Positions 5,418 through 20,611 of a DNA stretch of 21,001 nt are shown in pieces. A program made the position numbers and the translations under genes. This DNA comes from a virus. Below the pieces are notes generated by a model that saw only the letters and a list, made by a program, of their open reading frames with translations, did no database searches and was not told the origin of the DNA. Position 1 is the stretch's first letter. The number at the start of each line of letters is the position of its first letter. The DNA is taken from positions 1-21,001 of the IMG/VR virus record IMGVR_UViG_3300006565_000930; one strand, written 5' to 3'.

Positions 5418-6419
5418 ATGAAAAAAGCATTAATAACAGGCATAACTGGGCAAGATGGTTCTTATCTTGCCGAGTTACTTTTGTCTAAGGGGTATGAAGT
5501 TCATGGTATTGTGAGAAGAAGTTCTCTTATTAATACTCATAGGATTGATTCCATATATGATAAAATAACACTTCATTTTGGTGATATGACCGATTCAGGT
5601 GTTATTATTCATATCATACAGAAAGTACAACCAGATGAGATTTATAATCTTGCTGCACAAAGTCATGTGAAGGTATCCTTTGAGATGCCTGAGTATACTG
5701 GTTTAGTTGATGCTATGGGAACTCTTAGAGTTCTTGAAGCAGTTAGGATTCTTAATATGTGTGATAAATGTAGAGTTTATCAAGCATCTACTTCAGAATT
5801 ATATGGTGGTATTCAAAATACTGCATTAACAGAAACTACACCTTTCCATCCACGTTCTCCATATGGAGTTGCGAAACTTTATGGTTATTGGATAATTAAA
5901 AATTATCGTGATGCATATAATATACATGCAAGTTCTGGTATTTTATTCAATCACGAATCTCCAAGAAGAGGTGAGACATTTGTAACTCGTAAAATTACTC
6001 AAGGTTTATCTAAGATTTCTGTAGGATTACAAAAGGTTCTTTATCTTGGTAATCTAAATGCTAAGAGAGATTGGGGTCATGCAAAGGATTATGTTGAGGC
6101 AATGTGGTTAATGTTGCAGCAGGATAAACCTGATGATTATGTGATTGCTACGGGTGAGCAGTATTCTGTTAAGGATTTTATTAATGAAGCAGCACCTTAT
6201 TTTGGTTTTAATTTAGAATGGTTAGGTGAAGGTGAAGATGAAATTGCTATAGACAAGGCAACAAAGAAAACTGTTATTGCAATTGATCCAAAATATTTTA
6301 GACCTACTGAGGTAGATTCATTATTAGGTGATGCTACTAAAGCAAAGGAGATTTTAGGTTGGGAACCTAAAACATCATTTAAAGAACTAGTTGAGGAGAT
6401 GTGTATCTATGGACAATAA
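5418..6419 (+). CDS. gmd: GDP-mannose 4,6-dehydratase
   Basis: This 333-residue SDR-family enzyme would convert GDP-D-mannose to GDP-4-keto-6-deoxy-mannose, the first step to GDP-L-fucose, in the cytoplasm. The NADP-binding motif [10 protein letters not shown] is at 8-17. ASTSELYG (123-130) and YGVAK (149-153) supply the expected catalytic Thr125, Glu127, Tyr149 and Lys153. The R-rich [15 protein letters not shown] segment (178-192), typical of GMD, is present. It is slightly shorter than bacterial GMD (about 345-370 aa). No good ribosome-binding site precedes the ATG. It opens the sugar cluster and overlaps the fcl start by 11 bases. Host GDP-mannose is the likely substrate source, as no mannose-activating gene is seen. 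Confidence 0.95.
6354..6370. repeat. 17-bp palindrome, copy 1 (in gmd)
   Basis: TTAGGTT-GGG-AACCTAA is a perfect 7-bp inverted repeat within the LGWEP codons near the gmd end. The identical 17 bases recur at 7264-7280 in fcl. The shared protein motif probably explains most of the match, but codon choice also agrees. Confidence 0.6.
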
Positions 6420-7338
6420 TAGTAAGATATTTGTTGCAGGTCATAACGGACTTGTAGGATCAGCAATTATTCGTAATTTAAAATCTAATCATTATCAAAA
6501 TATCTATTGGGTTAGAAGACAGAATTGTGACTTGAGAAATAAGATTCAGGTAGATGCTTATTTTGAACAATCAAAACCAGAATATGTTATTCTTGCTGCT
6601 GCTAAGGTTGGTGGCATAGGTGGTAATTCTACATATCCTGCTGAGTTCATCTATGAGAATTTGATGATTCAAACTAATGTTATTGATGCTGCATATCGTC
6701 ATGGAGTTAAGAAGTTATTATTTTTAGGATCATCTTGCATCTATCCGAAGATGGCAAAGCAACCTATAACAGAAGATGCTTTGATGACTGGTCCATTAGA
6801 ACCCACTAATGATGCTTATGCTACTGCTAAGATTGCTGGTATTAAAATGTGCCAAGCATATCGTCAGCAGTATGGATTTAATGCAATATCATTAATGCCA
6901 ACTAATTTATATGGTCCTAATGATAATTTTGACATTAATAATGGACATGTATTTCCATCACTCATTGCAAAGTTTCATGGATCATTGGAGAAGAGTATTC
7001 ATTGGGAAGTAGAATTATGGGGTGATGGATCTCCTAAGAGAGAGTTTTTACATGTTGATGATTTAGCAGAAGCTTGTGTTAAGTGTATGCAAGAGTATGA
7101 TGAACCAGAACCAATTAATGTAGGTACTGGTGAGGATGTGACTATAAAGGAACTTGCTGAAACGATTGCAGATGTGGTAGGATATAAGAACAATGTTAAA
7201 TGGAATACTGATAAACCAAATGGCACTCCACGTAAAGTATTAAATGTGGATAAAATAAAGTCATTAGGTTGGGAACCTAAGATTGGTCTTAGAGAAGGTA
7301 TTGAATCAACATACGAATGGTATAAAGAGAATGTCTAA
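6409..7338 (+). CDS. fcl: GDP-L-fucose synthase (GDP-4-keto-6-deoxymannose epimerase/reductase)
   Basis: This 309-residue SDR enzyme would epimerise and reduce the Gmd product to GDP-L-fucose using NADPH. The start at 6409 has GAGGAG 10 bases upstream. The cofactor motif GHNGLVG is at 11-17, GSSCIYP at 107-113, and Tyr137 and Lys141 lie in AYATAK. Cys110 and His180 correspond to the acid/base pair known from the E. coli enzyme (Cys109, His179), so the protein should be active. It overlaps gmd by 11 bases and the next glycosyltransferase by 8. With the GT11 enzyme at 13638 this completes a route for making and transferring fucose. Confidence 0.95.
7264..7280. repeat. 17-bp palindrome, copy 2 (in fcl)
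   Basis: This is identical to the palindrome at 6354-6370 and also falls on LGWEP codons close to the 3' end of the gene, 910 bp downstream of copy 1. Confidence 0.6.
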
Positions 7339-8110
7339 AGTTAGTACTATAACTGCATGTTATAAAATGGGTAAGTATATGAAAGGTTTTTTAACTAATC
7401 TTTCGCAGCAAACTCATAAGGATCTTGAAATTGTTATGGATCATAATGATCCTTCTGATGCTGAAGTTAAATTAATTGAAGCACATAATGAAATATATGA
7501 TAATATTTTTCATATTCAAGTAGAAGGTGTTGACCCTCTTGGTATTTCTTGGAATCGTTGTATTGAAAATTCTTCTGGTGATTATCTTTGCATTTGGAAT
7601 GTTGATGATTTAAGAACACCTGATTCTATTGAAGTAATGGCAAAGGCATTGGATGATAATCCTGATGTTGATTTTGTCTATGGTGATTTTACTATAGTTT
7701 CTAAGTTTGGATCTACTAAAGGAGAATTTGTAGATAATGCTAATAGGGAGCATTTACTTAAATCTGGAATGATTCTTGGTCCATTTTTTATGTTCAGGAA
7801 ATCTGTTTTAGAGAAAACTAAAGTTTTTGATGAACAATTGGTATCTGGTAATGATTTTGATTTTGCTTTGAGACTTGCTTATAATAGTAAGGGAATGCAT
7901 ATTGCTCATGATTCTGGATATTATTTGAATGAAGGATTAGGTTTAAGCACTAGCCCTGATAGTAAACAAGCATTGGAAAGAACAGTTATTGAATTAAGAT
8001 ATGGTTTAAATGTACTTGAACCTCGCTTAATTCCTGCAACGAAGGATTATGATATAGAACGTATACATAATGGAACTTTTAAATTTAAAGCTAAGTGTTT
8101 AATGGTATGA
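7331..8110 (+). CDS. Family 2-like (GT-A) glycosyltransferase
   Basis: This 259-residue cytoplasmic protein follows the GT2 pattern. It has an N-terminal nucleotide-binding half opening with VSTITACYKMGKYMKGFL and the QQTHKDLEIVMDHNDPSD segment (26-43). A VDD metal-binding motif follows at 91-93 after GDYLCIWN. Late in the fold are FMFRKSV and a SGNDFDFALRLA stretch typical of the acceptor side. The sugar donor and acceptor cannot be told. No membrane segment is visible. The start overlaps fcl by 8 bases and the stop overlaps the next gene (ATGA). Confidence 0.85.
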   Translation: MSKVSTITACYKMGKYMKGFLTNLSQQTHKDLEIVMDHNDPSDAEVKLIEAHNEIYDNIFHIQVEGVDPLGISWNRCIENSSGDYLCIWNVDDLRTPDSIEVMAKALDDNPDVDFVYGDFTIVSKFGSTKGEFVDNANREHLLKSGMILGPFFMFRKSVLEKTKVFDEQLVSGNDFDFALRLAYNSKGMHIAHDSGYYLNEGLGLSTSPDSKQALERTVIELRYGLNVLEPRLIPATKDYDIERIHNGTFKFKAKCLMV

Positions 8111-9015
8111 AAATAATAGCGTTATTGCCTTTTAAAAATGAAGCATGGTGTTTACCATCATACTTACATAATACATTAAAGGTTGTGGATGAAATTATTG
8201 CTATAGATGATGGATCTATAGATGATTCTGCAAAAATTTTGGAAGATGCTGGAGCAAAAGTATATTCTGCTGATAAGTTAAGGAATTTTAATTCTGGTTG
8301 GTCTGAGGGATCTATCCGTGCAGAATTATTAAGATTAGGTAGAGAAGCAGGGGGAACTCATTTTGTTTGTTTGGATGCTGATGAATCATTTACAAATAGT
8401 TTTGTTCCTTTAGCAAAGAGTGCAATAAAGCAATTGCCAGCAGGACATAAGATAGCAATGCAATGGTTGGCATTGTGGAAAAGTTATACTCATTACAGGC
8501 ATGATAGTACTGTTTGGAGTAATAATTGGAAAGATTTTGTTGTAGCAGATGCTCCTAATTTAAGTTATAATTCGGAGCAGCATATGCATCTTGGTAGAAC
8601 ACCTCTTGGTCCCGATGAAAATGGTAATAGTCATTGGTTAATGTGGCCTCCTAATTATGCATCTGTTATGCATTATCAATTCTCAGTATATAATAATTTT
8701 CAATTAAAACAGTCTTGGTTAAGGTGTTCTGAATTGATACAAGAACCAGGAACAGAGGGAGCAATTAATTCTAAGTATTCTATTACTTTATTAGATCAGA
8801 ATGTAGGTTTACAAGAGATGCCTAATGATTGGTATGAGGGTGTTCCTATACCACAGGTAGATAATTTTGATCCAGAATGGGATGAAAAGAATTTCCTTAG
8901 AAAGGATTTATTACCTGGTATAATGAAGTATTTTGATGATTATGGTGTTGAGTATTTTAAAGGTTTGGATATCTGGCATATACCTCAACTTAGAGAGAGA
9001 TTAGAATCTGCATGA
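8107..9015 (+). CDS. Family 2-like (GT-A) glycosyltransferase
   Basis: This 302-residue protein begins with IIALLPFKNEAWCLPSYL, the usual first strand of GT2 enzymes. IDDGSIDDS follows at 33-41, and the metal-binding CLDADESF at 88-95. The second half is rich in Trp, Tyr and His (SYTHYRHDSTVWSNNWKDF, HYQFSVYNNF) and probably holds the acceptor site. I chose ATG 8107 because it gives the ATGA overlap and starts directly at the first strand. Specificity is unknown. It is a soluble, cytoplasmic member of the cluster. Confidence 0.85.
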   Translation: MKIIALLPFKNEAWCLPSYLHNTLKVVDEIIAIDDGSIDDSAKILEDAGAKVYSADKLRNFNSGWSEGSIRAELLRLGREAGGTHFVCLDADESFTNSFVPLAKSAIKQLPAGHKIAMQWLALWKSYTHYRHDSTVWSNNWKDFVVADAPNLSYNSEQHMHLGRTPLGPDENGNSHWLMWPPNYASVMHYQFSVYNNFQLKQSWLRCSELIQEPGTEGAINSKYSITLLDQNVGLQEMPNDWYEGVPIPQVDNFDPEWDEKNFLRKDLLPGIMKYFDDYGVEYFKGLDIWHIPQLRERLESA

Positions 9016-9581
9016 GAAAAATCATTGTACCTATAGGATTAGATTGTGGTATTGCCAGTGTATTAAAGAAATATAATCTAAGAAATTTTTCTTTACCTTT
9101 TGATTGGACAGTTACTTATAATGGTGTGTCTGATATAATAAAGGATAATTTTAGGAATTTTCTACCAAGAGGTTCTGAAAAGCATAATGTTTTATCCAAT
9201 ACTTCTTTTATTCATGAAGTTTTTCCTAATGATTACGATAAAATGTATAGAAGAATCCGTAGGTTTATGGATTTATTTAATAGTGATGATGAAATAATAT
9301 TCTTCAGAAGAGGACATGGTGTAAATCATCATCAAGAAAGTGAAGATAGATCTTTTAAATTGAAAAATGATCTTGAAGATTGTGAAGATCTATATGAATG
9401 GATAAAGGATAATTATCCTAATTTAAATTTTAGAATTATTGTATTGTTGGTATGTAATAAATGTTTTGAACCTTATAAAGAATATCAGTCAGACAATGTG
9501 GAGATATATAATATTTCAGATATAAAGGATTCTGTTGATGGTGATGAACGATTGGATTCTATTATTAAACAACTAATTTAA
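9012..9581 (+). CDS. DUF1796-type protein (putative papain-like cysteine peptidase family)
   Basis: This 189-residue protein has the family signature at its N-terminus: PIGLDCGIASVLKKYNLR (7-24) followed by SLPFDWTV (27-34), with Cys12 as the candidate nucleophile. Further on, EIIFFRRGH (about 95-103) and LRNFIIVLL-like strands alternate with acidic helices. DUF1796 members are often found in polysaccharide and phage sugar clusters, but their reaction is not established; the peptidase label is only a family name. It overlaps the previous GT by ATGA and is followed by the internal promoter. A glycan-related role is inferred from context. Confidence 0.6.
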   Translation: MRKIIVPIGLDCGIASVLKKYNLRNFSLPFDWTVTYNGVSDIIKDNFRNFLPRGSEKHNVLSNTSFIHEVFPNDYDKMYRRIRRFMDLFNSDDEIIFFRRGHGVNHHQESEDRSFKLKNDLEDCEDLYEWIKDNYPNLNFRIIVLLVCNKCFEPYKEYQSDNVEIYNISDIKDSVDGDERLDSIIKQLI

Positions 9582-9582
9582 C

Positions 9583-9611
9583 TTGTCAAAATACCAAAAG
9601 AGTGGTATGAT
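9583..9611 (+). promoter_or_regulatory. Internal sigma70-type promoter with an inverted repeat
   Basis: TTGTCA (9583-9588), a 17-bp spacer and TATGAT (9606-9611) form a good promoter in the only sizeable gap (52 bp) of the sugar cluster. The repeat ATACCA (9591-9596) / TGGTAT (9603-9608) lies in the spacer and overlaps the -10 box, all upstream of the expected start near 9618, so it could be an operator. It would drive the second part of the cluster from 9634. Confidence 0.7.
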
Positions 9612-9633
9612 ATAGTATAACTTAAAAATTCAT

Positions 9634-10386
9634 ATGACACACGATTTAGAACAATTATATGATAAGGCATTTTTCTTAGATAATGTTGCTGATAGTTTGC
9701 CTATGGCAAGATGGTTTGCTCCAAGAATTACGAAAGAATTGGGTATTACTTCAGTATTAGATGTTGGATGTGCAAGTGGCCATTGGTTATCATGTTATGA
9801 AAAGGAGGGTGTTGAGGTTAATGGAATAGAAGGTGCGAAAAATGCTATACCTTTTATGTTAATAGATCCTGCAAAGATTTTAATACATGATTTAAGAAAT
9901 CCTCTTGAAGATGATTATTCTGTAGATTTGGTAATGAGTATTGAAGTAGCAGAACATATTGAACCAGAGTATGCAGATACTTATGTTGATACTTTAACTA
10001 AGCATGGTGCAGATTATATTATAATGACTGCTGCTCCTCCAGGACAAGGTGGTGTTGGTCATTGGAATTTACAACCAAAGTCTTATTGGGTAAAGAAATT
10101 TAATGATAAGGGTTATACAAGATTTGATTCATTTGAAGATAAAATTATTGAATGGGCTAAAGAGGCAAGAGAAACAAAAACAACAAACCCAGATTATTTG
10201 TGGATGACTACTGAGGGTGATTCTACTGGTCAACCTGCTGGTCAAGTTAGAGATCGAATTGCATATTGGGGATCTCATGAAGATGCTATGGAAGGAGATC
10301 TTTCTAAAATAAAATGGGGTAAAGGTGAAGGTCAGGTTATGCTTCCTTTCTGGTGGCCTAAGAATTTAATAGTATTTAAAAAATGA
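9634..10386 (+). CDS. Class I SAM-dependent methyltransferase
   Basis: This 250-residue protein has the Rossmann motif I VLDVGCASGHWL (41-52), an acidic GIEGAK at the end of strand 2, the DLVMSIEVAEHIEP motif (about 98-111) and a post-motif DYIIMTAAPPGQGGVGHWN. These are features of sugar or small-molecule methyltransferases. The substrate is unknown; given the neighbours, a sugar hydroxyl or carboxyl is likely. No ribosome-binding site is evident, and the leader from the promoter at 9583-9611 would be only about 16 bases. The stop overlaps the following GT4-like gene by ATGA. Confidence 0.88.
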   Translation: MTHDLEQLYDKAFFLDNVADSLPMARWFAPRITKELGITSVLDVGCASGHWLSCYEKEGVEVNGIEGAKNAIPFMLIDPAKILIHDLRNPLEDDYSVDLVMSIEVAEHIEPEYADTYVDTLTKHGADYIIMTAAPPGQGGVGHWNLQPKSYWVKKFNDKGYTRFDSFEDKIIEWAKEARETKTTNPDYLWMTTEGDSTGQPAGQVRDRIAYWGSHEDAMEGDLSKIKWGKGEGQVMLPFWWPKNLIVFKK

Positions 10387-11471
10387 TTAGAGTAGCTTTC
10401 ATCAAGTTTGGTGGAATGGCAAATGGAGGTACTGAAAAGTATCTCCAAACCATTGCTTCATATCTACCTAAAGATGATTTTAAGGTAGATTTTTTTTATT
10501 GTGATGCTGCTCCATATATTGGATCGGATTATGCTCATCAGGACACTGATAATTCCAGAATTGAGTATACAAAGTCTCATGGAGTTAATTTGATTAAGGT
10601 TGAGGTTGGTGCTAAAGATGTAACTAAACCAACTCATGATTGGGTTAATACTAATTTTTGGGAATTATTTGATGAGAATAATTATGATATAATTCAGACT
10701 GGTCGTGCTGGACATCCTGAATATCCATTTCATTTAATTAAAAATACACCAATAGTTGATAGCATTCATTTAGCAGGAATGGTTGATGGTAATCCTAATA
10801 TTGCTAAGACTGTTTTAATATCTGAAGATCAAAAAAGAAAATGGATAGGTTCTGGTGGTAATCCATCAAAAGCGATTATTATACCTGTGCCAGTAGAGAC
10901 TGTAAGTGTTAATGAATCTTATAGAGAAGAGTTTGGGTGGGAAGATAAATTTGTATTTGGAATGCATCAAAGAAATGATATGCATATATTTTCATCAATA
11001 CCATTAGAAGCATATGATGAAATTGAGGATGATAACACTGCCTTTTTGATTTTAGGTGGCAGTGCTAATTATAGAAAACAAGCAAAGGATTTGGGATTAA
11101 AGAATGTTCGGTTCCTTGATACTACAAGTGATGTATCTTTGATTCATAAGTTTTTAAATACTTTGGATGTATATGCTCATGGACGTTCTGATGGGGAACA
11201 ATGTTCAAGTGCTATTATTGAAGGGTTATCTCATTCATTACCTATGATAAGTCATACTGCACCAAGTATGGGTCAATTAGAACAAATAGGTGATGCTGGT
11301 GATGTTGTAGATGATTATATTGAGTATGCTGAAGTTATGGTATCAATGATGAAAGATCATCAATATTATAAGGATTGTGTTAATAATGCTTCTAAAAGAT
11401 ATCAAGAGATTTATAATGTAGAATCAATTATAAAGAAGTTTTCTAATTTATATAAAGAGGTTGTGGGATAA
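10383..11471 (+). CDS. Family 4-like (GT-B) glycosyltransferase
   Basis: This 362-residue protein has the two-domain GT-B layout. The N-terminal domain starts with RVAFIKFGGMANGGTEKYLQ (3-22), with the glycine-rich acceptor loop. The C-terminal domain has VFGMHQRND (191-199), FLILGGSANY (221-230) and the diagnostic E-x7-E motif at Glu272 and Glu280 inside GEQCSSAIIEGL. Such retaining enzymes use nucleotide sugars; donor and acceptor are unknown. The sequence between the domains is acidic. It overlaps the methyltransferase by 4 bases and abuts the HddA-like kinase. Confidence 0.85.
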   Translation: MIRVAFIKFGGMANGGTEKYLQTIASYLPKDDFKVDFFYCDAAPYIGSDYAHQDTDNSRIEYTKSHGVNLIKVEVGAKDVTKPTHDWVNTNFWELFDENNYDIIQTGRAGHPEYPFHLIKNTPIVDSIHLAGMVDGNPNIAKTVLISEDQKRKWIGSGGNPSKAIIIPVPVETVSVNESYREEFGWEDKFVFGMHQRNDMHIFSSIPLEAYDEIEDDNTAFLILGGSANYRKQAKDLGLKNVRFLDTTSDVSLIHKFLNTLDVYAHGRSDGEQCSSAIIEGLSHSLPMISHTAPSMGQLEQIGDAGDVVDDYIEYAEVMVSMMKDHQYYKDCVNNASKRYQEIYNVESIIKKFSNLYKEVVG

Positions 11472-12419
11472 ATGTATATTGCATCTTGTCCTCTGAGAGT
11501 TTCTTTATTTGGTGGTTCAACAGATAATCCATATTTTGTAGAGAAGTATGGTCGTGGATCTGTCATTAGTTTTACTTCTAATCTTAAAACTTATGTAACG
11601 ATTAGTCAAGATAAGTTTGGTTTTAATAAAGATAAGCACAAGTATATCATAAATTATTCAAGGAGGGAAGAAGTTTCTACTATAGATGAAATACAGAATG
11701 AGGTGGTTAGAACTGTATTGAAACATTTTGACATGCCACCAGTTCAAGTTACTCTTACCAGTGATGCATATTCTCAAGGTAGTGGTCTTGCTTCTTCATC
11801 ATCTTATACAATAAGTCTTATTAAAGCTTGTTGTTTATTTTTTAATCTTTCTATTACTAACAATGACATATGCAAACTTGCCTATAGATTGGAACGCATA
11901 TACAACCCTTTTTGCGGCTATCAAGACCCATATGGTTGCGGCATGGGAGGGTTTAAAAGGATTGATTTCCTCGGTGGGTCTTCTGTTCGGTATCAGTTTT
12001 TACCTTGTACTATATTTGATGATTTTGATATCAATCTTGTCTTTAGCGGTGTTACTAGAAACTCACGAAGAATCCTCAGAAACGTCACAGACAACTTAGA
12101 TAAGGTTAAACCATTATTAGAAACTTGTGATAAAGCATATGATATTCTTATGGAAGAAGACTATGATAAGTTTTTATACCTCTTAGGGAAGAGTTGGCAT
12201 CAGAAGAAATTAACATCTTCTATTATTTCAGAAAATGATACTATTCGTGATATTGATTTAACCTTAGAAGAAAATGAATCTGTTTGTGCTCATAAATTAT
12301 GTGGAGCAGGTAATGGTGGATTTTTTCTAACGTTTTCTGAAAAGGGTAAGTTGAATATTCCGTATGAATCTGTTAAAATAAGTGTTGAAACGAATGGTGT
12401 TACTGGTAGAATTATATGA
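11472..12419 (+). CDS. hddA: GHMP sugar kinase, D-glycero-D-manno-heptose 7-phosphate kinase-like
   Basis: This 315-residue GHMP-family kinase most resembles HddA, which phosphorylates heptose 7-phosphate at C1 to give the 1,7-bisphosphate. PLRVSLFGGSTD (7-18) is the N-terminal motif with the HddA-like GG(S/G)TD. The ATP loop is GSGLASSSS at 103-111, and the third GHMP motif KLCGAGNGGFF is near residue 281-291. A FCGYQDPYGC segment in the middle is typical of sugar kinases of this group. The start follows directly on the preceding TAA, and the stop overlaps gmhA by ATGA. The direct neighbourhood of GmhA and a phosphatase/nucleotidyltransferase supports the heptose assignment over other GHMP substrates. 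Confidence 0.82.
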   Translation: MYIASCPLRVSLFGGSTDNPYFVEKYGRGSVISFTSNLKTYVTISQDKFGFNKDKHKYIINYSRREEVSTIDEIQNEVVRTVLKHFDMPPVQVTLTSDAYSQGSGLASSSSYTISLIKACCLFFNLSITNNDICKLAYRLERIYNPFCGYQDPYGCGMGGFKRIDFLGGSSVRYQFLPCTIFDDFDINLVFSGVTRNSRRILRNVTDNLDKVKPLLETCDKAYDILMEEDYDKFLYLLGKSWHQKKLTSSIISENDTIRDIDLTLEENESVCAHKLCGAGNGGFFLTFSEKGKLNIPYESVKISVETNGVTGRII

Positions 12420-12919
12420 ATCCATTTGATGAATATATTGAAACTTTGAAGTCTGCTCATATGGAAGTAGAGTTCTTTAAGTTTCAGAAAGCATTTTATA
12501 CTCATAATAGAATTATTATATTAGGTAATGGTGGAAGTAACTCTGTTGCTTCTCATATATCTCAGGATTATATGAAGTTTCATGGTAAGAAGGTTTCTCT
12601 TCTTTCTGATCCTTCTATGATTACAATGCTTACTAATGATTATGGGTATGATAATGCATACCAGAAGTTTTTAGAATGTTATGCAGAAGATGATACTTTG
12701 GTAATTATTATAAGTTCTGGTGGAGAATCAATGAATATGGTTAATTGTGTAAATTGGTGTGAGGATAATGATGTTCCATATGGAGTATTGACTGGATTTA
12801 ATAAAGATAATACTATAAGGAAGTCTGCAAATAATTGCTTATGGAATTATCATATTGCCAGTGAGAGTTATGGTGTGGTAGAATGTGTTCATCAAATATT
12901 TTTACATGGGGTTATATGA
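12416..12919 (+). CDS. gmhA: Phosphoheptose isomerase-like SIS protein (GmhA)
   Basis: This 167-residue SIS-domain protein would convert sedoheptulose 7-phosphate to D-glycero-D-manno-heptose 7-phosphate. The phosphate loop GNGGSNSVASH (37-47) has the GmhA form with His47. The second loop is SSGGESMN (100-107), and ECVHQIFLH (156-164) is the C-terminal catalytic helix. It is shorter than E. coli GmhA (192 aa), mainly at the N-terminus. By eye, two metal-site positions differ conservatively: Asp51 where E. coli has Glu65, and Glu156 where it has Gln172. The start overlaps hddA (ATGA), and the stop overlaps the next gene (ATGA). Other SIS sugar-phosphate isomerases remain possible. Confidence 0.82.
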   Translation: MNPFDEYIETLKSAHMEVEFFKFQKAFYTHNRIIILGNGGSNSVASHISQDYMKFHGKKVSLLSDPSMITMLTNDYGYDNAYQKFLECYAEDDTLVIIISSGGESMNMVNCVNWCEDNDVPYGVLTGFNKDNTIRKSANNCLWNYHIASESYGVVECVHQIFLHGVI

Positions 12920-13641
12920 GATATTGTTTTGATATAGATGGTACTATTTGTCATACACCTTGTGATCCAGATGGGCATAATGTAAGGTATTGGGATGCTG
13001 TTCCTTTTCCATATATGGTTGAGAGGATTAATCAATTATATGATGAAGGTAATTATATTATATTGATGACTGCAAGAGGTAGAGGATCTCGTAAAGATTG
13101 GACTGAATTAACAAGAGAGCAGATGGAACATTGGGGTATTAGATATCATGAGATAGAACCTATGTTTCATAAACCTCATGCTCATCTCTTTATTGATGAT
13201 AAAGGTATTGATGTAGAAGAATGGAGAAAGACACAACCACCTAAGAAAGGCATTATTGCTGGTGCATTTGATTTAATACATCCTGGGTATATTAGAATGT
13301 TTAAAGATGCTAAAGCATATTGTAATCATTTAACTATTGCTTTACATGAAGATCCTTCTACAGAACGCCCTAATAAATTGAAACCAGTTCATTCAGTAGA
13401 AGAAAGGAAGGAAATATTATCTTCTATAAAATATGTTGATGATGTGGTGGTATATACTATTGAAGAACAGTTTTTATCATACTTAAAGGATTATGAAGTT
13501 CGTTTTTTGGGTACAGATTATTTGGACGGTAGTTATACTGGCAAAGATATTGCCATTGATGTTGTCTGGTTAAATAGAGATCATGACTATTCTACTACTA
13601 AATTAAAGAAAGATATTTACAATTCTATAAAACCATTATGA
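12916..13641 (+). CDS. Fused HAD phosphatase and nucleotidyltransferase (GmhB/HldE-C-like)
   Basis: This 241-residue protein has two domains. Residues 1-105 form a small HAD phosphatase with DIDGT (6-10; Asp6 nucleophile, Asp8 acid/base), MTARG (51-55) and the metal-binding FIDDKG (92-97). Residues 112-241 form a cytidylyltransferase-type domain with GAFDLIHPGY (116-125) and the DYSTTKLKK motif (224-232). In the heptose pathway these are the phosphatase (GmhB) and nucleotide-transfer (HldE C-terminal or HddC) steps. The second His of the usual HxGH motif is Tyr125 here. The HAD part lacks the zinc-binding Cys loop of E. coli GmhB and resembles small capsule-cluster phosphatases. An NDP-glycerol or other alditol product is the alternative. 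Overlaps both neighbours by 4 bases. Confidence 0.78.
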   Translation: MRYCFDIDGTICHTPCDPDGHNVRYWDAVPFPYMVERINQLYDEGNYIILMTARGRGSRKDWTELTREQMEHWGIRYHEIEPMFHKPHAHLFIDDKGIDVEEWRKTQPPKKGIIAGAFDLIHPGYIRMFKDAKAYCNHLTIALHEDPSTERPNKLKPVHSVEERKEILSSIKYVDDVVVYTIEEQFLSYLKDYEVRFLGTDYLDGSYTGKDIAIDVVWLNRDHDYSTTKLKKDIYNSIKPL

Positions 13642-14435
13642 TCACTTTTAATAATCTTGGAAATCTTGGTAGACTTGCCAATCAAATGTTTCAGTATGCA
13701 TCTCTTAAAGGTATTGCAAATAATAGAGGATTTGAATTTTCTATTCCACCAGAGAGTGATTTTGGTAATACTGATGTTATGGTTAGAAATGAACGTTTAA
13801 ATTTGCATAGTTGTTTCTATGTCAATGAACACACTAAGATTGGTACATATCCTAATCAAATATTTCCTGAAAGAATGCATACATTTGATCAAGAATTATT
13901 TGATAAATGTCCAGATAATGTAGATTTATTTGGATATTATCAGTCTCCAAAATATTTTAATCATATTGAAGATGAGATAAGAAAAGACTTTGCTTTTTCT
14001 AAAGAGTTAATTGATAGTTGTCAATCTATAATTGATGATTTTATTATAGGTGGTGATGCCATTGCACTTCATATTCGTAGAACTGATTATACTGCAAATC
14101 CAAATCATCCACTTCAGGATATGGAGTATTATAAAAATGCTTTAAAAGAATTGCCAGATGTTCCTGTTCTTGTATTCTCTGATGATCCAAAGTGGTGTCA
14201 TGAGCAAGAGTTATTTCTTGAAGATAAGTTTGCTATTTCTGATAATGATGGAGATTTTGATTTATGTTTAATGACATTATGTAAGTATCATATTATTGCA
14301 AATAGTTCTTTCTCTTGGTGGGGTGCTTGGTTAGGTAAAAGTGATAAGATTATTGCACCTAAGAATTGGTTTGGTGCTACATGTGCTCATAAATCTGTAG
14401 ATGATATGGCATTTGGTGATTGGACTTGGTTATGA
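13638..14435 (+). CDS. Family 11 alpha-1,2-fucosyltransferase
   Basis: This 265-residue GT11 enzyme would transfer L-fucose from GDP-fucose, usually to the 2-OH of galactose. The N-terminal GNLGRLANQMFQYA (8-21), the FGYYQSPKYF block (98-107), the GDP-binding HIRRTDY (145-151; HxRRxDY of alpha-1,2/1,6-fucosyltransferases) and the C-terminal NSSFSWWGAWL (222-232) are all present. The length is normal for short bacterial members. Its donor would come from Gmd and Fcl in the same cluster. GT11 enzymes make the H-type fucosylated Gal in bacteria and animals, the acceptor for the GT6 family enzyme found here at 16575. Overlaps both neighbours by ATGA. Confidence 0.93.
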   Translation: MITFNNLGNLGRLANQMFQYASLKGIANNRGFEFSIPPESDFGNTDVMVRNERLNLHSCFYVNEHTKIGTYPNQIFPERMHTFDQELFDKCPDNVDLFGYYQSPKYFNHIEDEIRKDFAFSKELIDSCQSIIDDFIIGGDAIALHIRRTDYTANPNHPLQDMEYYKNALKELPDVPVLVFSDDPKWCHEQELFLEDKFAISDNDGDFDLCLMTLCKYHIIANSSFSWWGAWLGKSDKIIAPKNWFGATCAHKSVDDMAFGDWTWL

Positions 14436-15292
14436 TTAATTTGTGGTATGATACTTCATACTTTTCTGGTAGAATGGGAGGACCTGAAAAGTTAGTAAAG
14501 AATCTTCAATCATCATTATCAGATCAAAATATTCCTTTTTCTATAAATGAGGATCGATATGAAAAGAATATTCTAATACAGTATGATACTATAGGTCATT
14601 CTAAGCATGAAAAATTAGAGCATAGTTCTTGTTTCATAGGACCACAGGTCTGGCCATTTGATCCTTATGGTAAATTTCTTTTAGATAATACTAAGTTTTA
14701 TAATAAGATAATTGTACCTTCTAAGTGGGTAAAGGATTTATTCATTAGTAAGTTTGGATGTCCAGCAGATAAAATATCAATATGGCCAGTTGGTATTGAA
14801 GAGTTATATTCTGATCGTAATATTACATATGATTGTTTGATTTATTCTAAGCGTAGAAGTAGTGAGGAGTTGGAGCAAGTTAAATCATTTTTAACTAAAC
14901 ACAATTTAGAATATAAGATGATAGAGTATGGTGGATATGATGAAAATGAATTTAGAGATCTTGCAAGACAGGCAAGATTTTGTTTCTTATTAAATGGAAC
15001 AGAGAGTCAGGGTATAGCAGTTCAAGAAATGATGTCTCTTGGAGTTCCTTTATTTGTATGGGATCTAAGAACTTGGGAAGATCAAGGATCTGAATGGTCT
15101 GTTCCAGCAACTTCTGTTCCATATTGGGATGATAGATGTGGTGAAAGATTTTATGATATTGGTGATATACAAGAGACTTTTGATAAATTTTATGCTACAA
15201 TAGGGAAGTATAAACCGCAGAACTTTGTAAAGGATACTCTTTCTTATGAGTGTTCTGTTAAGACTCTTTTGGAGATATTAAATGCTGATTAG
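14432..15292 (+). CDS. Family 4-like (GT-B) glycosyltransferase
   Basis: This 286-residue protein starts with INLWYDTSYFSGRMGGPEKL (2-21), where the GGPEK loop recalls GT4 acceptor sites. PSKWVKDLF (96-104) and WPVGI (118-122) are typical of the linker. The C-terminal domain carries E-x7-E at Glu191 and Glu199 in TESQGIAVQEM. It is shorter than most GT4 enzymes (about 350 aa), chiefly in the N-terminal domain. I placed the start at ATG 14432, overlapping the GT11 stop by ATGA; an upstream TTG would add four residues. Specificity is unknown. Confidence 0.8.
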   Translation: MINLWYDTSYFSGRMGGPEKLVKNLQSSLSDQNIPFSINEDRYEKNILIQYDTIGHSKHEKLEHSSCFIGPQVWPFDPYGKFLLDNTKFYNKIIVPSKWVKDLFISKFGCPADKISIWPVGIEELYSDRNITYDCLIYSKRRSSEELEQVKSFLTKHNLEYKMIEYGGYDENEFRDLARQARFCFLLNGTESQGIAVQEMMSLGVPLFVWDLRTWEDQGSEWSVPATSVPYWDDRCGERFYDIGDIQETFDKFYATIGKYKPQNFVKDTLSYECSVKTLLEILNAD

Positions 15293-15917
15293 TTTTAAAC
15301 AATTAAAACAAAAGTATAATATGAATATATCTGGTGTAATTCATATTGGAGCACATTTTGGTCAAGAAGCAAAAGACTATGTTGATAATGGAATTACTGA
15401 AATGGTTTTCTTTGAACCTCTTTCTGAGAACTTGAAAGTTTTAGAAGAGAATCTTTCTTATGTTGCTATGGATGCAAATATTATGATCTATCCCGTTGCT
15501 CTTGGTAATGAGGAAAAGGAAGTTGAGATGTATGTGAGTAATCGTGATCGTATGTGTAGTTCAATACTAAAACCAAAGGTTGTCTTAGAGCAGTATCCAG
15601 ATATAACTTTTGATGAAAGAGAAACTGTAGAGATGATGAGATTAGATAATACTGATCTTGAATTTGATAATTTTAATTTCTTGAATATTGATGTTCAAGG
15701 ATATGAACTTGAGGTTCTTAAAGGTGGAGCAAAGACTCTTGAAGGTATAGATTATATTTACACTGAGATAAATCGTGCAGAAGTGTATGAGAATACTCCT
15801 CATGTAGATGAACTAGATACTTATCTAAAACCTTATGGTTTTACCAGAGTAGAAAGTGATTGGACTGGTGATACTTGGGGTGATGGATTGTATATCAAGG
15901 AGAAGAGTAATGTATAA
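15282..15917 (+). CDS. FkbM-family methyltransferase (1 of 3)
   Basis: This 211-residue SAM-dependent methyltransferase of the FkbM type, known for O-methylating sugars and polyketides, has GVIHIGAHFGQEA (18-30) as its SAM loop, VFFEPLSENL (42-51) and the strongly conserved FLNIDVQGYELEVLKGG (about 132-148) that defines the family. Its start overlaps the preceding GT by 11 bases and its stop overlaps the next FkbM gene by 8. Methylation of a transferred sugar is inferred from the cluster. The three FkbM copies are clearly divergent and not recent duplicates. Confidence 0.88.
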   Translation: MLISFKQLKQKYNMNISGVIHIGAHFGQEAKDYVDNGITEMVFFEPLSENLKVLEENLSYVAMDANIMIYPVALGNEEKEVEMYVSNRDRMCSSILKPKVVLEQYPDITFDERETVEMMRLDNTDLEFDNFNFLNIDVQGYELEVLKGGAKTLEGIDYIYTEINRAEVYENTPHVDELDTYLKPYGFTRVESDWTGDTWGDGLYIKEKSNV

Positions 15918-16578
15918 GGTATCTGAAAGTTGTCAGATTGATACTTTGAGTGATATCTACACAAAGTATTTTGGGTATCCATCTAAAGGATATTTTGTTG
16001 AAGTGGGTGCATATGATGGTGAGTTTGTATCTAATACATCTTGCCTTGCAGATCATGGATGGGAAGGTCTTTACATAGAACCAATATATGATCATTACTT
16101 AAAGTGTATGAAAAGGCATGATAAGAATGATGTTACGGTTGCTAATGTTGCTGTTGGTTTGGAAGAGGGTGAGACTACCATATATTATGGAGATACTTTA
16201 ACTACCTTAGATAAGGATCAGGTTAAAAGATATTCTGAGATGGATGTCTTTCAACATATTTCATTCAGCACTACAGTATGTGATCAGATGAGGTTGGATA
16301 CTTTAATGAAAAAGATTGAAGTTCCAAAGGAGTTTGATGTATTAGTTGTTGATGTTGAAGGTAAAGAAGCAGAAGTATTTGAAACCTTTGAATTAGATGA
16401 ATGGAAACCTAAGATGCTAATCATTGAATTAGAAGATGAACACCCATCATTCCAAAAGTATGAGGATCTTGTAAATCGTATAAAAGATTTACGACAATAT
16501 ATTCTTGATAAAGGATATACTGAGATCTTTAAAGATCATATCAATACCGTATTTGTCAGAGAGGAAATTAAAAAATGA
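15910..16578 (+). CDS. FkbM-family methyltransferase (2 of 3)
   Basis: This 222-residue protein has an FkbM fold with YFVEVGAYDGEFVSNT (28-43), the IEP following strand 2 (56-58) and LVVDVEGKEAEVFETF (about 146-161) in place of the usual DxEGxE segment. I set the start at ATG 15910, behind a good AAGGAGAAG ribosome-binding site and within the end of the previous gene; upstream in-frame codons would only extend it inside that gene. The C-terminus is Lys-rich and overlaps the GT6 start by ATGA. Likely a sugar O-methyltransferase, by context. Confidence 0.86.
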   Translation: MYKVSESCQIDTLSDIYTKYFGYPSKGYFVEVGAYDGEFVSNTSCLADHGWEGLYIEPIYDHYLKCMKRHDKNDVTVANVAVGLEEGETTIYYGDTLTTLDKDQVKRYSEMDVFQHISFSTTVCDQMRLDTLMKKIEVPKEFDVLVVDVEGKEAEVFETFELDEWKPKMLIIELEDEHPSFQKYEDLVNRIKDLRQYILDKGYTEIFKDHINTVFVREEIKK

Positions 16579-17270
16579 AAATTTGTATTTTAACAATAGC
16601 AACAAATAAGTATATTCAGTTTGTTGAGGAGTTGTATAATAATATTGAGGAGCATTTTCTAAATGGTCATGAAATAGAAGGTATTATTTTTACTGAACAT
16701 GAGGTAGAGGTATCTGATAATATTAAGGTATCTCAGATTGATCATCAACCTTGGCCTATGCCAACTTTAAAAAGGTATAATTATTTTATGAAAGAAGCAG
16801 AGCATATTTCTAAGTATGATTATTGTTTCTATTTTGATGTAGATATGGCTTTAGTTGATAAAGTTGGTGATGAGGTTTTAGGTGATCTTGTTGCTACGAT
16901 GCATCCTTATCAATCATTTGCTCCTAAAGAGAGTAGAACATATGATCGTAACCCTGAATCATTAGCATATGTTGCACCTGGTGATGAGTCAGATAACTAT
17001 TATGCTGGTGGGTTCAATGGTGGATCTACTAAGAGATTTCTTGAGATGGCAGAGGTTATTTCTCGTAGAGTTTCTAAGGATCTTTATAATGATGTTGTTG
17101 CCTTGTGGCATGATGAGTCACATTTAAATAGATATTTGATTGACAATCCACCAGATGTAACTTTGAGTCCTTCATATTGTTTTGCCGAGGAATTGAAGAA
17201 CAATCCTGAATATCCATTTGAACCAAAGATTGTTGCTTTAAAGAAAAATCACAGTGAGTTGAGAAGTTAG
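16575..17270 (+). CDS. Family 6 glycosyltransferase (ABO blood-group / alpha-1,3-Gal(NAc) family)
   Basis: This 231-residue protein shows the full GT6 signature: WPMPTLKRYNYF (60-71), FYFDVDM (85-91) with a metal-binding DVD, YYAGGFNGG (142-150) and WHDESHLNRYL (178-188), where Glu181 matches the catalytic Glu of mammalian GT6. Family members transfer Gal or GalNAc in alpha-1,3 linkage to Gal, and ABO enzymes need a fucosylated acceptor. It is soluble, lacking the stem and membrane anchor of animal enzymes. Bacterial GT6 proteins usually have NxN instead of DxD, so this one keeps the vertebrate-type motif; a GT6 of this kind has been noted in a cyanophage before. It lies between two FkbM methyltransferases. 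Confidence 0.9.
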   Translation: MKICILTIATNKYIQFVEELYNNIEEHFLNGHEIEGIIFTEHEVEVSDNIKVSQIDHQPWPMPTLKRYNYFMKEAEHISKYDYCFYFDVDMALVDKVGDEVLGDLVATMHPYQSFAPKESRTYDRNPESLAYVAPGDESDNYYAGGFNGGSTKRFLEMAEVISRRVSKDLYNDVVALWHDESHLNRYLIDNPPDVTLSPSYCFAEELKNNPEYPFEPKIVALKKNHSELRS

Positions 17271-17271
17271 A

Positions 17272-17922
17272 ATGTCTAGTTATTTACGTTGTTTAGATAG
17301 AATTGAATTTGATTCTGATTATGTACCAACATTCTTTGATGTTGGGTGTAATATTAATGAGATACCATCTCACTGTGGAACTCTTGAGGATTTTACAGAA
17401 TTATTTCTAAGTCAATATCCTAATGCTAAAGGATATGGTATAGATGCTTTGTATTGGCAGTCTTATGAGGAGAAATGGGGTGATAGAGTAACTGTTATAA
17501 AAAAGGCACTTTCCAATAATGTAGGTGTAGCAACTATGTATACACCAGGTATAGATGATGAGTTTAAGTCTCATGCTATATCATCTTTACATAATAGAGA
17601 TTGTTTTAGTCATGGAATTTCTGAAGAAGAAGTTGAGTGTACTACTATAGATACTCTTTTTGAAGAATTTGGATTAGAAAGTATTGATTATTTAAAGGTT
17701 GATACTGAAGGTGCAGAACTTATGATTCTTAAAGGTGCTGAAAAAAATTTGAGAGATAAACGTATACAATGTATTCAACTTGAGTATGGTGACACTTATA
17801 AAGATGCTGGATTTGGTGTAGGTGATGTGATAACATATTTAAAGAAGTTTGATTATCTTGAGTTTTTTAGAACTCAAGAAGAATTATTATTTGCTCATAA
17901 GGATGATATACCATGCGATTAG
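17272..17922 (+). CDS. FkbM-family methyltransferase (3 of 3)
   Basis: This 216-residue protein has TFFDVGCNINEIPSH (20-34) as a divergent SAM loop, GYGIDAL (54-60) after strand 2, and the FkbM signature CTTIDTLFEEF followed by DYLKVDTEGAELMILKGAE (about 139-157). The glycine-rich loop is less canonical (DVGCNINE rather than DVGxxxG), but the rest is well conserved. It begins one base after the GT6 stop and overlaps the GT25 gene by 10 bases. Sugar O-methylation is inferred from family and neighbours. Confidence 0.86.
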   Translation: MSSYLRCLDRIEFDSDYVPTFFDVGCNINEIPSHCGTLEDFTELFLSQYPNAKGYGIDALYWQSYEEKWGDRVTVIKKALSNNVGVATMYTPGIDDEFKSHAISSLHNRDCFSHGISEEEVECTTIDTLFEEFGLESIDYLKVDTEGAELMILKGAEKNLRDKRIQCIQLEYGDTYKDAGFGVGDVITYLKKFDYLEFFRTQEELLFAHKDDIPCD

Positions 17923-18551
17923 ATCTTAGAACTGTATCAGCAATCTATATCAATCTCAAGAAAGATGTAAAGAAAGATTTTGAGATGAAGAGGTTGATGG
18001 TTGACTTTGGATTCAAGAATGTTATTCGTGTAGAAGGTAATGTCATACCTGATAGACATCTTGCTGGATGTTCCCTCTCACACTATAATGCTCTACATGA
18101 AATAGATCCACCCTTCATTATCTTTGAGGATGATTGTGTAATCAAAAACAATATACCAGAGATAGAAATACCTGATGATGCAGATGCAGTTTATCTGGGA
18201 GTATCATCTTGGGGTAGAATGAATTCTCACTCAGGACCATTTGTTCAATATGAAAAGGTTGATGAAAATCTTGTAAGGGTGTATAATATGCTTGGTGCTC
18301 ACGCAATATTATATCTGAATCAAGAGTATGCTTCTATGTGTAGTAGAATCGCTCAGAATGGATATGATATAGCAGATCATCAGGATATAGGATTTGCAGA
18401 GATTCAAAGGTACTTTAATGTATATGCCTTTAATGATCCTCTGTTCTATCAGACAAGTTCTAATGGAACTAATGAACCATTAACTTCATATCCTACACAA
18501 GAACTGATGCAACCACATCGTTCATTCTGGAAACCAACTGCTTTATATTAA
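17913..18551 (+). CDS. Family 25-like glycosyltransferase (1 of 2)
   Basis: This 212-residue protein matches the GT25 layout of LPS beta-galactosyltransferases. It has SAIYINLKKDVKKDFEM (9-25) with the INL-KxD start, AGCSLSHYNAL (51-61) and FIIFEDDCVI (68-77) with the acidic EDD. The second half contains the YLGVSSWGR (193-201 region lies later; here about 93-101) and GAHAILY (102-118 area) type strands found in the family. GT25 enzymes use UDP-Gal or related donors with inversion. It starts 10 bases before the previous stop and is joined to the epimerase by TAATG. Confidence 0.75.
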   Translation: MRLDLRTVSAIYINLKKDVKKDFEMKRLMVDFGFKNVIRVEGNVIPDRHLAGCSLSHYNALHEIDPPFIIFEDDCVIKNNIPEIEIPDDADAVYLGVSSWGRMNSHSGPFVQYEKVDENLVRVYNMLGAHAILYLNQEYASMCSRIAQNGYDIADHQDIGFAEIQRYFNVYAFNDPLFYQTSSNGTNEPLTSYPTQELMQPHRSFWKPTALY

Positions 18552-19453
18552 TGAATTCTATAGTTACTGGTGCTGCTGGATTTATCGGATCCCATCTTGT
18601 AGATGAACTTATACAAATTGGACATACCGTCACTGCAGTTGATAATGAATATGCTGACAATGATAAGTTTCATTGGAATGATAAAGCATATAATGTTCGA
18701 GCAGATATAACAGATTACAAATCTATGAAGGGTGCTTTTGCTAATGGGCAGGATTACGTTTTTCATTGTGCTGCTGAATCTCGTATTGGACCTGCCATAG
18801 CAAATCCTATTAACGCTGTAGATATAAACGCTAAAGGTACTTGTACGGTTCTACAATGTGCAAGAGAATTTGGAGTTAAGAAAGTAATGTATTCATCCAC
18901 TTCCTCTGGTTATGGGATGAATCCTTCTCCAAATGTAGAAACGCAACCTGATGATTGTTTGAATCCTTATTCAGTTTCAAAGATAGCAGGTGAAAAGTTA
19001 TGTAAAATGTATACAGATCTATTTGATCTTCCTACAGTTATATTCAGATATTTTAATGTTTATGGTGAGAGAGCACCAAGGAAAGGACAGTATGCTCCTG
19101 TTATTGGTATTTTTCAGAGGCAAAAGGAAGCAGGTGAACCACTAACTATTGTGGGTGATGGTGAGCAGAGAAGAGACTTTGTATATGTTAAAGATGTTGC
19201 AAAAGCAAATATAATGGCAGCAATATCTAATGCAGATCCAGAAGTATATGGTCAAGTATATAATGTTGGATCTGGTGTTAATCTATCAGTAAATGAAATT
19301 GCTGATATGATATCTGATAATACAGTTAATATTCCACCACGTATAGGTGAAGCAAGAAACAGTCTGGCTAATATTGATAAGATAGAAAAAACATTTGGTT
19401 GGAAGCCACAAATGAATGTTGAAAAATGGATTAAGGAACAGACAAATGGATAA
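18551..19453 (+). CDS. GalE-like NAD-dependent nucleotide-sugar epimerase
   Basis: This 300-residue extended SDR protein resembles UDP-glucose/UDP-GlcNAc 4-epimerases. GAAGFIG (7-13) binds NAD, SSTSS is at 115-119, and the catalytic pair is Tyr140 and Lys144 in NPYSVSK. RYFNVYGERAP lies in the middle and GDGEQRRDFVYVKDVA follows later, as in GalE/WbpP-type enzymes. The likely reaction is C4 epimerisation of a UDP-hexose, supplying UDP-Gal or UDP-GalNAc to the GT25 and GT6 enzymes; a 4,6-dehydratase is less likely from the motifs. It shares one base with the preceding stop (TAATG), and its stop overlaps the next GT25 gene by 8 bases. Confidence 0.85.
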   Translation: MNSIVTGAAGFIGSHLVDELIQIGHTVTAVDNEYADNDKFHWNDKAYNVRADITDYKSMKGAFANGQDYVFHCAAESRIGPAIANPINAVDINAKGTCTVLQCAREFGVKKVMYSSTSSGYGMNPSPNVETQPDDCLNPYSVSKIAGEKLCKMYTDLFDLPTVIFRYFNVYGERAPRKGQYAPVIGIFQRQKEAGEPLTIVGDGEQRRDFVYVKDVAKANIMAAISNADPEVYGQVYNVGSGVNLSVNEIADMISDNTVNIPPRIGEARNSLANIDKIEKTFGWKPQMNVEKWIKEQTNG

Positions 19454-20234
19454 GAATAAATCAGTAAGTAAATTAAAGGGACTTCCCCATGTATATTGTA
19501 TTAACCTTGATGGTGAACCAAATAGATGGGAATCTATGGAGACAATGCTTAAGTATTGGGAAGTAGAGAACTATACTCGTATCTCTGCTTATGATGGTAG
19601 GGAAGATGATTTAAGTGATATTCTTAAAGGTAGGTATCCTGATTCTATGACTGGTGGTGAAGTTGGGTGTACTACATCACATCTAAAAGCACTTAAAGAG
19701 TTTCTTAAAACCGATGATCAATATGCGATTGTAATGGAAGATGATTGCGATCTTTCCCCAGTTGCACATTGGGGTTTTACTTGGAAAGATTTTTATGCCA
19801 AAGTTCCATATGATTATGATGTAATTCAATTAGCAATTATTAATCCTGCACAGGTATATCTTCAGATGCATCGTAGGTTTGTAAATGATTTCTCTACAGC
19901 ATGTTATATGATTACAAGACATCATGCAGAGAAACTTGTTAGGTTGCACTGTAGAGGTGATAAGTATAAGTTAGATCAAGGTGTTAAGCCAAGAGCAGTT
20001 GCAGACGATTTAATATACAATTCAGGTAATACATTTGCTATGCCACTCTTTCTTTACAAAATTGAGTTAGGATCTTCGATACATGATATTCATATCAACG
20101 TATTTCATAAAACCAGTTATGAAGGATTATGGCAGTTCTGGAGGAATCAAGCACCAGATGTTTCTGATTGGAATGCTTTGTTTTCGTATGATCCGTACTT
20201 TAATCGTATTCCACCAGGTTTTGAAGGTAAGTAA
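19446..20234 (+). CDS. Family 25-like glycosyltransferase (2 of 2)
   Basis: This 262-residue protein has the GT25 signature: VYCINLDGEPNRWESM (16-31), AYDGRE (48-53), GGEVGCTTSHLKAL (70-83) and the metal-site region AIVMEDDCDLSP (94-105). After that, DVIQLAIINPAQ and YMITRHHAEKLV follow the family order. I chose ATG 19446, overlapping the epimerase by 8 bases; an upstream start inside that gene would add only a short basic stretch. It is the last gene of the cluster, and the terminator begins 17 bases after its stop. Confidence 0.86.
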   Translation: MDKNKSVSKLKGLPHVYCINLDGEPNRWESMETMLKYWEVENYTRISAYDGREDDLSDILKGRYPDSMTGGEVGCTTSHLKALKEFLKTDDQYAIVMEDDCDLSPVAHWGFTWKDFYAKVPYDYDVIQLAIINPAQVYLQMHRRFVNDFSTACYMITRHHAEKLVRLHCRGDKYKLDQGVKPRAVADDLIYNSGNTFAMPLFLYKIELGSSIHDIHINVFHKTSYEGLWQFWRNQAPDVSDWNALFSYDPYFNRIPPGFEGK

Positions 20235-20251
20235 TATAAGTTAACTTTATG

Positions 20252-20276
20252 GGGGTCATTAGACCCCTTTAATTTT
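20252..20276 (+). terminator. Strong rho-independent terminator closing the sugar cluster
   Basis: GGGGTC pairs with GACCCC around an ATTA loop (20252-20267), followed by TTTAATTTT. It separates the 15-kb sugar operon from the hli unit. Confidence 0.88.
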
Positions 20277-20291
20277 GTTCGGAAACCCCTA

Positions 20292-20320
20292 TTGTAAACT
20301 TATATTACATATTTTATAAT
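20292..20320 (+). promoter_or_regulatory. Sigma70-type promoter for the hli cluster
   Basis: TTGTAA (20292-20297), a 17-bp spacer and a perfect TATAAT (20315-20320) lie just after the cluster terminator and 34 bases before the first hli ATG. Host RNA polymerase should use it, as expected for an early or middle transcript. Confidence 0.8.
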
Positions 20321-20354
20321 TGCTAAATAATTTCGTTACTATTCTTAACAAAGA

Positions 20355-20567
20355 ATGACAACTTCAAATCCAACTTCAAAGTATACAACCACGGAGTACG
20401 GTAAGCAAAATATGTTTGCTTCTCAACCCCCTATGGAATACGTTGAAGATTATAAAGGATATTGGGAAGAAGCAGAACTACTCAATGGTCGCCTAGCGAT
20501 GATTGGTTTAGTTATCGGCATCTTTAATTACACCGTCTTCGGATGGGTAATTCCAGGCATAGCCTGA
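20355..20567 (+). CDS. hli: High-light-inducible protein with complete chlorophyll-binding motif
   Basis: This 70-residue Hli protein has a soluble N-terminus (1-37) and one membrane helix (about 42-60). Its ExxNxR motif (Glu41, Asn44, Arg46 in ELLNGRLAMIGLV) is complete, and it ends in WVIPGIA as usual. Hli proteins bind chlorophyll and carotenoid in the thylakoid membrane and protect photosystem II; phage copies are thought to keep host photosynthesis running during infection. It is the first gene after the promoter at 20292-20320 and is separated from the next hli by two hairpins. Confidence 0.92.
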   Translation: MTTSNPTSKYTTTEYGKQNMFASQPPMEYVEDYKGYWEEAELLNGRLAMIGLVIGIFNYTVFGWVIPGIA

Positions 20568-20611
20568 CCTTATAGGTCTTTTACACCGTCAGCGAGTGCT
20601 GACCACTTTTT
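20566..20611 (+). terminator. Tandem hairpins between first and second hli genes
   Basis: The first hairpin is GACCT/AGGTC with a TAT loop (20566-20578), overlapping the hli stop and followed by TTTT. The second is GTCAGC/GCTGAC with a GAGT loop (20588-20603), followed by CAC and TTTTT (20607-20611). Either could terminate or protect mRNA ends. The second is the stronger stem. They would let the first hli be expressed differently from the next three. Confidence 0.6.

Follow-up and report, generated by a model that had tools for sequence, protein, structure and literature searches.

An operon in the IMG/VR virus record IMGVR_UViG_3300006565_000930 carries a set of genes from which the synthesis of a blood-group-like (ABO/H-like) sugar is plausible. 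The window, by which we mean the whole 21-kb stretch analyzed (21,001 nucleotides, from position 1 of the record), is DNA of a marine cyanophage and bears the cyanomyovirus hallmarks Hsp20, PstS and Hli proteins. Its glycan genes extend from 5418 to 20234, all on the plus strand, and encode the GDP-fucose enzymes Gmd and Fcl, a GT11 fucosyltransferase, a glycosyltransferase of family GT6 (the ABO family), two GT25-type enzymes and a GalE-like epimerase, as well as further glycosyltransferases and methyltransferases. The original prediction placed GT11, GT6, GT25, Gmd, Fcl and GalE-like proteins in one transcription unit at 13638-19453 and read them as the steps from H to A or B antigens. All of these families were found, with scores well above chance. 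That interval is too short, as Gmd and Fcl lie 6-8 kb upstream and the Pfam-recognised GT25 gene ends at 20234.

Neighbouring genes in this run share a few bases or directly adjoin one another, apart from a single gap of 52 nt, and a terminator-like hairpin detected by a consensus scan (20251-20268, plus strand) closes the operon. Because of this gene anatomy, which agrees with the claim of one transcription unit, a single transcript across 5418-20234 is likely. A scan for sigma-70-like promoter sites gave no excess over shuffled sequences (96 versus 94). GDP-fucose supply, GT11 and GT6, which an ABO/H-type pathway calls for, are located within this one genetic unit.

The GT6 enzyme

The product of 16575-17270 matches the GT6 model of Pfam (PF03414, E-value = 1.9e-42), and its best matches in the PDB are BoGT6a (4ayj, E-value = 8e-39) and human ABO (E-value = 2e-36). 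The catalytic and metal-binding motifs of the family are present (D88-V-D90, H110, T122, the donor triplet A144-G-G146 and W178-H-D-E181), with T122 aligned to Thr134 of BoGT6a, and the C-terminal K224, H226 and R230 (K..H...R) correspond to a lid of the mammalian type. BoGT6a (4AYJ), the blood-group A-antigen synthase of Bacteroides ovatus, has the AGG triplet, the catalytic HDE and a conserved Lys in common with the window enzyme. However, BoGT6a carries NxN and is metal-independent (PMC3961637), whereas the window GT6 has DxD, and its C-terminal Arg is in the position seen in mammalian GT6. DxD was recognized in all 140 distinct viral GT6 sequences (140/140); among 81 bacterial sequences, 42 have NxN and 32 have DxD. 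The filamentous cyanobacterium Moorena bouillonii possesses a DxD GT6 with the triplet AGA and a GT11 gene nearby, and numerous DxD GT6 genes exist in Dependentiae/Babeliales and Chlamydiota, often with no GT11 nearby.

The donor-site triplets of the 140 viral enzymes are AGG (93), QGC (22), AAA (15) and CGG (9), which suggests that donors probably vary among them. BoGT6a, with AGG, uses UDP-N-acetylgalactosamine (UDP-GalNAc), while human GTA and GTB have Leu266/Gly268 and Met266/Ala268, respectively (PMC4202792). Because the window enzyme shares AGG with BoGT6a, GalNAc is the favoured guess for its donor. In a tree built by a quick search, the window GT6 groups with cyanophage GT6; the human ABO branch is long and its position uncertain, and we therefore make no claim on the origin of ABO.

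GT11 and the supply of GDP-fucose

The fucosyltransferase gene at 13638-14435 (Pfam PF01531, E-value = 6e-24) contains the motif HIRRTDY, a form of the HxRRxD signature of GT11, and keeps H145, R147, R148 and D150, which are invariant among viral GT11. Its AlphaFold model (predicted local distance difference test, pLDDT, 92) has a GT-B fold of the GDP-fucose-using kind; the nearest solved folds found by Foldseek, NodZ, POFUT1, FUT8 and AtFUT1, are all fucosyltransferases. This match is at the level of the fold alone, with no sequence-level match to solved structures. An alpha-1,2 linkage is predicted for the enzyme, although sequence does not fix it.

Gmd (GDP-mannose 4,6-dehydratase, 5418-6419) is the first gene of the operon and scores 543 bits against the NCBIfam gmd equivalog (cut-off 415). 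It is followed by Fcl (GDP-L-fucose synthase, 6409-7338), which reaches 471 bits with NF047922 (E-value = 1.5e-141), just below the 500-bit cut-off. Gmd and Fcl share the glycan cluster in the window, P-SSM2, ACG-2014f and DSL-LC02. In Bellamy, S-CAM9, SynMITS9220M01 and S-PRM1, a divergent short-chain dehydrogenase/reductase (SDR) of 350-373 amino acids, a reductase/epimerase weakly similar to Fcl, is encoded directly 5' of GT11-GT6.

GT25-type enzymes and the epimerase

Candidates for the beta-galactosyltransferase that would make the acceptor are two. The gene at 19446-20234 is recognized by Pfam as GT25 (PF01755, E-value = 8e-13). The protein of 17913-18551 matched no Pfam or NCBIfam model; its AlphaFold model (pLDDT 92) is a GT-A enzyme whose nearest solved folds by Foldseek are mimivirus R655, human COLGALT1 (a collagen galactosyltransferase of GT25) and bacterial beta-1,4-galactosyltransferases. 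These neighbours, with TM-scores of 0.5-0.58, support at the level of the fold a GT25-like enzyme and probable galactosyltransferase. The predicted GT25 beta-galactosyltransferase-like proteins are therefore one GT25 by Pfam and one GT25-like protein by fold alone, and GT25 donors are not uniform. Positions 17913-18548, in the gene for the GT25-like protein, are 96.4% identical in DNA to gene 269 of P-SSM2, against about 70-83% for the neighbouring aligned blocks, which points to recent recombination or transfer. The epimerase at 18551-19453 (Pfam PF01370, E-value = 1e-59) is a GalE-like SDR with a small gatekeeper residue (Ser), and its PDB neighbours are GalE and WbpP.

Association of GT6 with GT11

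If GT11 and GT6 acted in sequence (H, then A/B), their genes would be expected to associate more closely than those of other glycosyltransferase pairs. Based on 62 non-redundant viral GT6 loci, GT11 is present on the fetched stretch in 48 and is the direct neighbour of GT6 in 23, against a mean of 9.4 when the six genes on each side of GT6 are shuffled (p = 0.0005); the loci are not fully independent, and the shuffles ignore operon structure. Direct neighbours occur in the cultured phages Bellamy, S-CAM9, S-PRM1, SynMITS9220M01 and B23 and in the metagenome-assembled DSL-LC02. The family of the 17913-18551 gene also adjoins GT6, in 19 of the 62 loci (null mean 5.7). In contrast, neither the GT6-GT25 control (2 adjacencies versus 3.5 expected) nor GT25-GT11 (6 versus 6.1) was enriched in the viral loci. 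In bacteria, GT6 adjoins GT11 in 26 of 74 loci (null mean 9.4, maximum 19). Clustering of GT6 at 50% protein identity gives 48 clusters, of which 26 show the adjacency; since GT11 occurs in three placements relative to GT6 (upstream, downstream, and downstream but on the opposite strand), a single frozen arrangement is an unlikely explanation.

Around GT25-anchored loci, the presence of GT6 and that of GT11 were uncorrelated (23/12 versus 16/9, p = 1.0); since most such clusters hold both, presence is uninformative and adjacency is the informative measure. Scans with the GT2 gene and the second FkbM gene of the window gave 9 and 5 loci, too few to serve as controls. What argues for a functional link between GT6 and GT11, in short, is that the GT25 pairs show no such enrichment and that the genes occur in several orders.

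A proposed pathway and its alternatives

The characterised bacterial GT6 enzymes (BoGT6a, H. mustelae BgtA and E. coli O86 WbnI) use acceptors in which fucose is linked alpha-1,2 to galactose (Fuc-alpha1,2-Gal; PMC3961637, PMC4202792). In E. coli O86, WbwK (GT11) makes Fuc-alpha1,2-Gal and WbnI (GT6) adds the terminal alpha-1,3 sugar (PMC4202792), a division of labor that resembles the GT11 and GT6 of the window. Because of these known acceptors and the GT6-GT11 pairing, an H-to-A/B sequence is the simplest interpretation. The original prediction is supported in part on this point, by the family assignments, the GDP-fucose supply and the statistically strong pairing; acceptors, linkages, donors and carrier we infer.

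On balance we lean, with restrained confidence, towards an operon by which a cyanophage makes a glycan largely on its own. In this reading GDP-L-fucose would come from Gmd and Fcl, and UDP-Gal or UDP-GalNAc from the GalE-like enzyme. A beta-Gal or similar residue added by a GT25-type enzyme would be capped by GT11 with alpha-1,2-fucose, and the metal-dependent GT6 would attach alpha-1,3-linked GalNAc (Gal being less likely), so that a larger, methylated oligosaccharide would carry an H-to-A-like branch. Assembly would proceed in the host cytoplasm by soluble enzymes, the most likely targets being phage virion proteins, or alternatively a host glycolipid core. Since the operon also encodes heptose-pathway-like proteins, three methyltransferases of the FkbM type and, besides GT11, GT6 and the GT25-type enzymes, four other glycosyltransferases, a trisaccharide of the A/B kind would make up no more than a portion of the larger glycan. 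A bolder version, in which an autonomous soluble phage pathway places a genuine A-type epitope, GalNAc-alpha1,3[Fuc-alpha1,2]Gal, on cyanophage virion proteins and GT11-GT6 is a widespread viral and bacterial module, seems quite doubtful to us.

E. coli O86 has a complete O-antigen system, which builds its O-antigen on a lipid carrier. Unlike in O86, we could not find the corresponding families in eight complete GT6-bearing cyanophages (the complete genome of the window's own phage not being among them): PF02397 (PglC/WbaP), PF00953 (WecA), PF01943 (Wzx) and PF04932 (Wzy/WaaL) were all absent, as was the STT3 family, while positive controls behaved as they should. Of a Wzx/Wzy-dependent O-antigen pathway, then, neither the initiating transferase nor the flippase nor the polymerase/ligase families were found in these genomes. 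No strong membrane segment was found in any protein of the glycan operon in the window. With lipid-carrier, flippase, ligase and STT3 families not found in the eight phages, the data are easier to reconcile with sugars attached directly to phage proteins, or to a host glycolipid core, than with a pathway of the O-antigen type. Mycobacteriophages have glycans on capsid and tail tube subunits, according to the citation of Freeman 2023 in PMC12619734; the principle would be shared if virion proteins carry the cyanophage glycan.

An alternative with another carrier but unchanged GT11-GT6 chemistry is that the operon remodels the host surface (the core of lipopolysaccharide, LPS, or exopolysaccharide) during infection and so blocks superinfection or alters recognition. 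This is the usual view of cyanophage "LPS genes" in the literature (PMC9602691, which names P-SSM2), and soluble enzymes could extend the host lipid A-core with no flippase. However, the LPS of marine Synechococcus is reported to be simple, glucose-rich and devoid of heptose (PMC4515613), so that the usual core acceptor is absent. The undecaprenyl phosphate, flippase and ligase families are those not found in the GT6 cyanophages, and a lytic phage would presumably gain little time. We regard host remodelling as rather unlikely, and, since the operon brings heptose-type genes while the LPS of marine Synechococcus is reported as heptose-free, a phage-made structure is mildly favoured over the editing of host LPS.

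It is also conceivable, and in our view unlikely, that GT6 and GT11, though encoded in one operon, work on separate acceptors or have other specificities, with no H-to-A/B sequence. Several observations weigh against the sequential pathway. Three genes separate GT11 from GT6 in the window, and of 32 bacterial GT6 loci of the DxD type, most of them from Dependentiae and Chlamydiota, only 10 have GT11 nearby. GT11 is not exclusively alpha-1,2, its member HhFT2 being an alpha-1,3-fucosyltransferase (PMC4202792); the differing donor triplets of viral GT6 make one common product unlikely, and the substrate of the epimerase is not fixed by SDR sequence. Clear Gmd and Fcl genes are missing from five of the eight complete GT6 phages and score highly in three, so that a GDP-fucose supply is not a constant partner of GT6; the phages lacking high-scoring genes may depend on the host for it or use divergent enzymes. 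Against separate action stand the excess of adjacency over shuffles in phages and bacteria, in several gene orders, and the fucosylated acceptors of the characterised bacterial GT6 enzymes.

That the glycosyltransferases modify phage DNA in the manner of T4 glucosyltransferases was proposed for the PF03414 gene of DSL-LC02 (PMC10611076), and phage glycosyltransferases can act on DNA (PMC12619734, PMC10611076), but we reject this as the main role and consider it highly improbable, as GT6, GT11 and GT25 are families that form oligosaccharides, nucleotide-sugar synthesis and FkbM-type methyltransferases are encoded in the operon too, and no hydroxymethyl-base enzyme was recognized among its genes.

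Comparison with P-SSM2 and other genes of the operon

The gene set is not new, being visible in the public genome of Prochlorococcus phage P-SSM2 with GT6, GT11 and GT25 annotated (genes 265 and 268 of that phage are GT11 and GT6, respectively). Positions 12900-20600 of the window are collinear with that genome, 71% of the stretch aligning at 77% nucleotide identity. PSSM2_257-271 (AY939844) has the same order, namely Gmd, Fcl, GT2s, GT1, GT11, GT4-like, FkbM, GT6, GT25-like, epimerase, GT25 and hli; the public annotation reads Gmd, epimerases, GT2s, GT1, GT11, hypotheticals, GT6, hypothetical, epimerase, GT25 and hli. The window has extra FkbM genes, and its heptose-type activation genes (11472-13641) are an insertion relative to P-SSM2. 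P-SSM2 in turn has an epimerase (PSSM2_259) and a gene annotated as phytanoyl-CoA dioxygenase, neither with a counterpart at that place in the window.

Downstream of Fcl are located a GT2 (7331-8110, Pfam PF00535, E-value = 1e-13) and a GT2-like glycosyltransferase (8107-9015, PF00535, E-value = 2e-7). A papain-like DUF1796 protein (9012-9581, PF08795, E-value = 4e-13) sits inside the glycan operon and is followed by an S-adenosylmethionine methyltransferase (9634-10386, Methyltransf_11 above cut-off) and a glycosyltransferase of the GT1/GT4 (GT-B) type (10383-11471, PF00534, E-value = 4e-9). The heptose-type genes comprise a GHMP kinase resembling HddA, heptose-7-phosphate kinase (11472-12419, NF049969, E-value = 2e-29, far below cut-off), a GmhA-like SIS isomerase (12416-12919, TIGR00441, E-value = 2e-13, below cut-off) and a fusion of HAD phosphatase-like and heptose-1-phosphate nucleotidyltransferase-like parts (12916-13641, PF01467; PHROG 7878, E-value = 7e-29), their NCBIfam scores all being well below cut-off. 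Between GT11 and GT6 are a GT4-like glycosyltransferase (14432-15292, weak match to PF13439, E-value = 2e-6, just below cut-off) and two FkbM methyltransferases (15282-15917 and 15910-16578; PF05050, E-value = 4e-19 and 3e-21). A third FkbM gene (17272-17922, PF05050, E-value = 7e-20) has no counterpart at the same place in P-SSM2.

Implications

GT6 in two cyanophages has been mentioned in print (PMC3961637), and the fucose genes of one cyanophage were classed as cell-wall genes (PMC9602691). The papers we found assign such cyanophage genes in general terms to LPS, the cell wall or DNA glycosylation, and, in a literature coverage lacking key reviews, we found none that proposes an H/A/B-type pathway for them. 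The strong coupling of GT11 with GT6 in phages and bacteria yields a concrete prediction, namely that the acceptors of cyanophage GT6 carry alpha-1,2-linked fucose. Should this hold, sugars of the ABO type would be common in marine viruses with no link to vertebrates, a result that would bear on the spread of GT6 genes and on the function of viral glycans.

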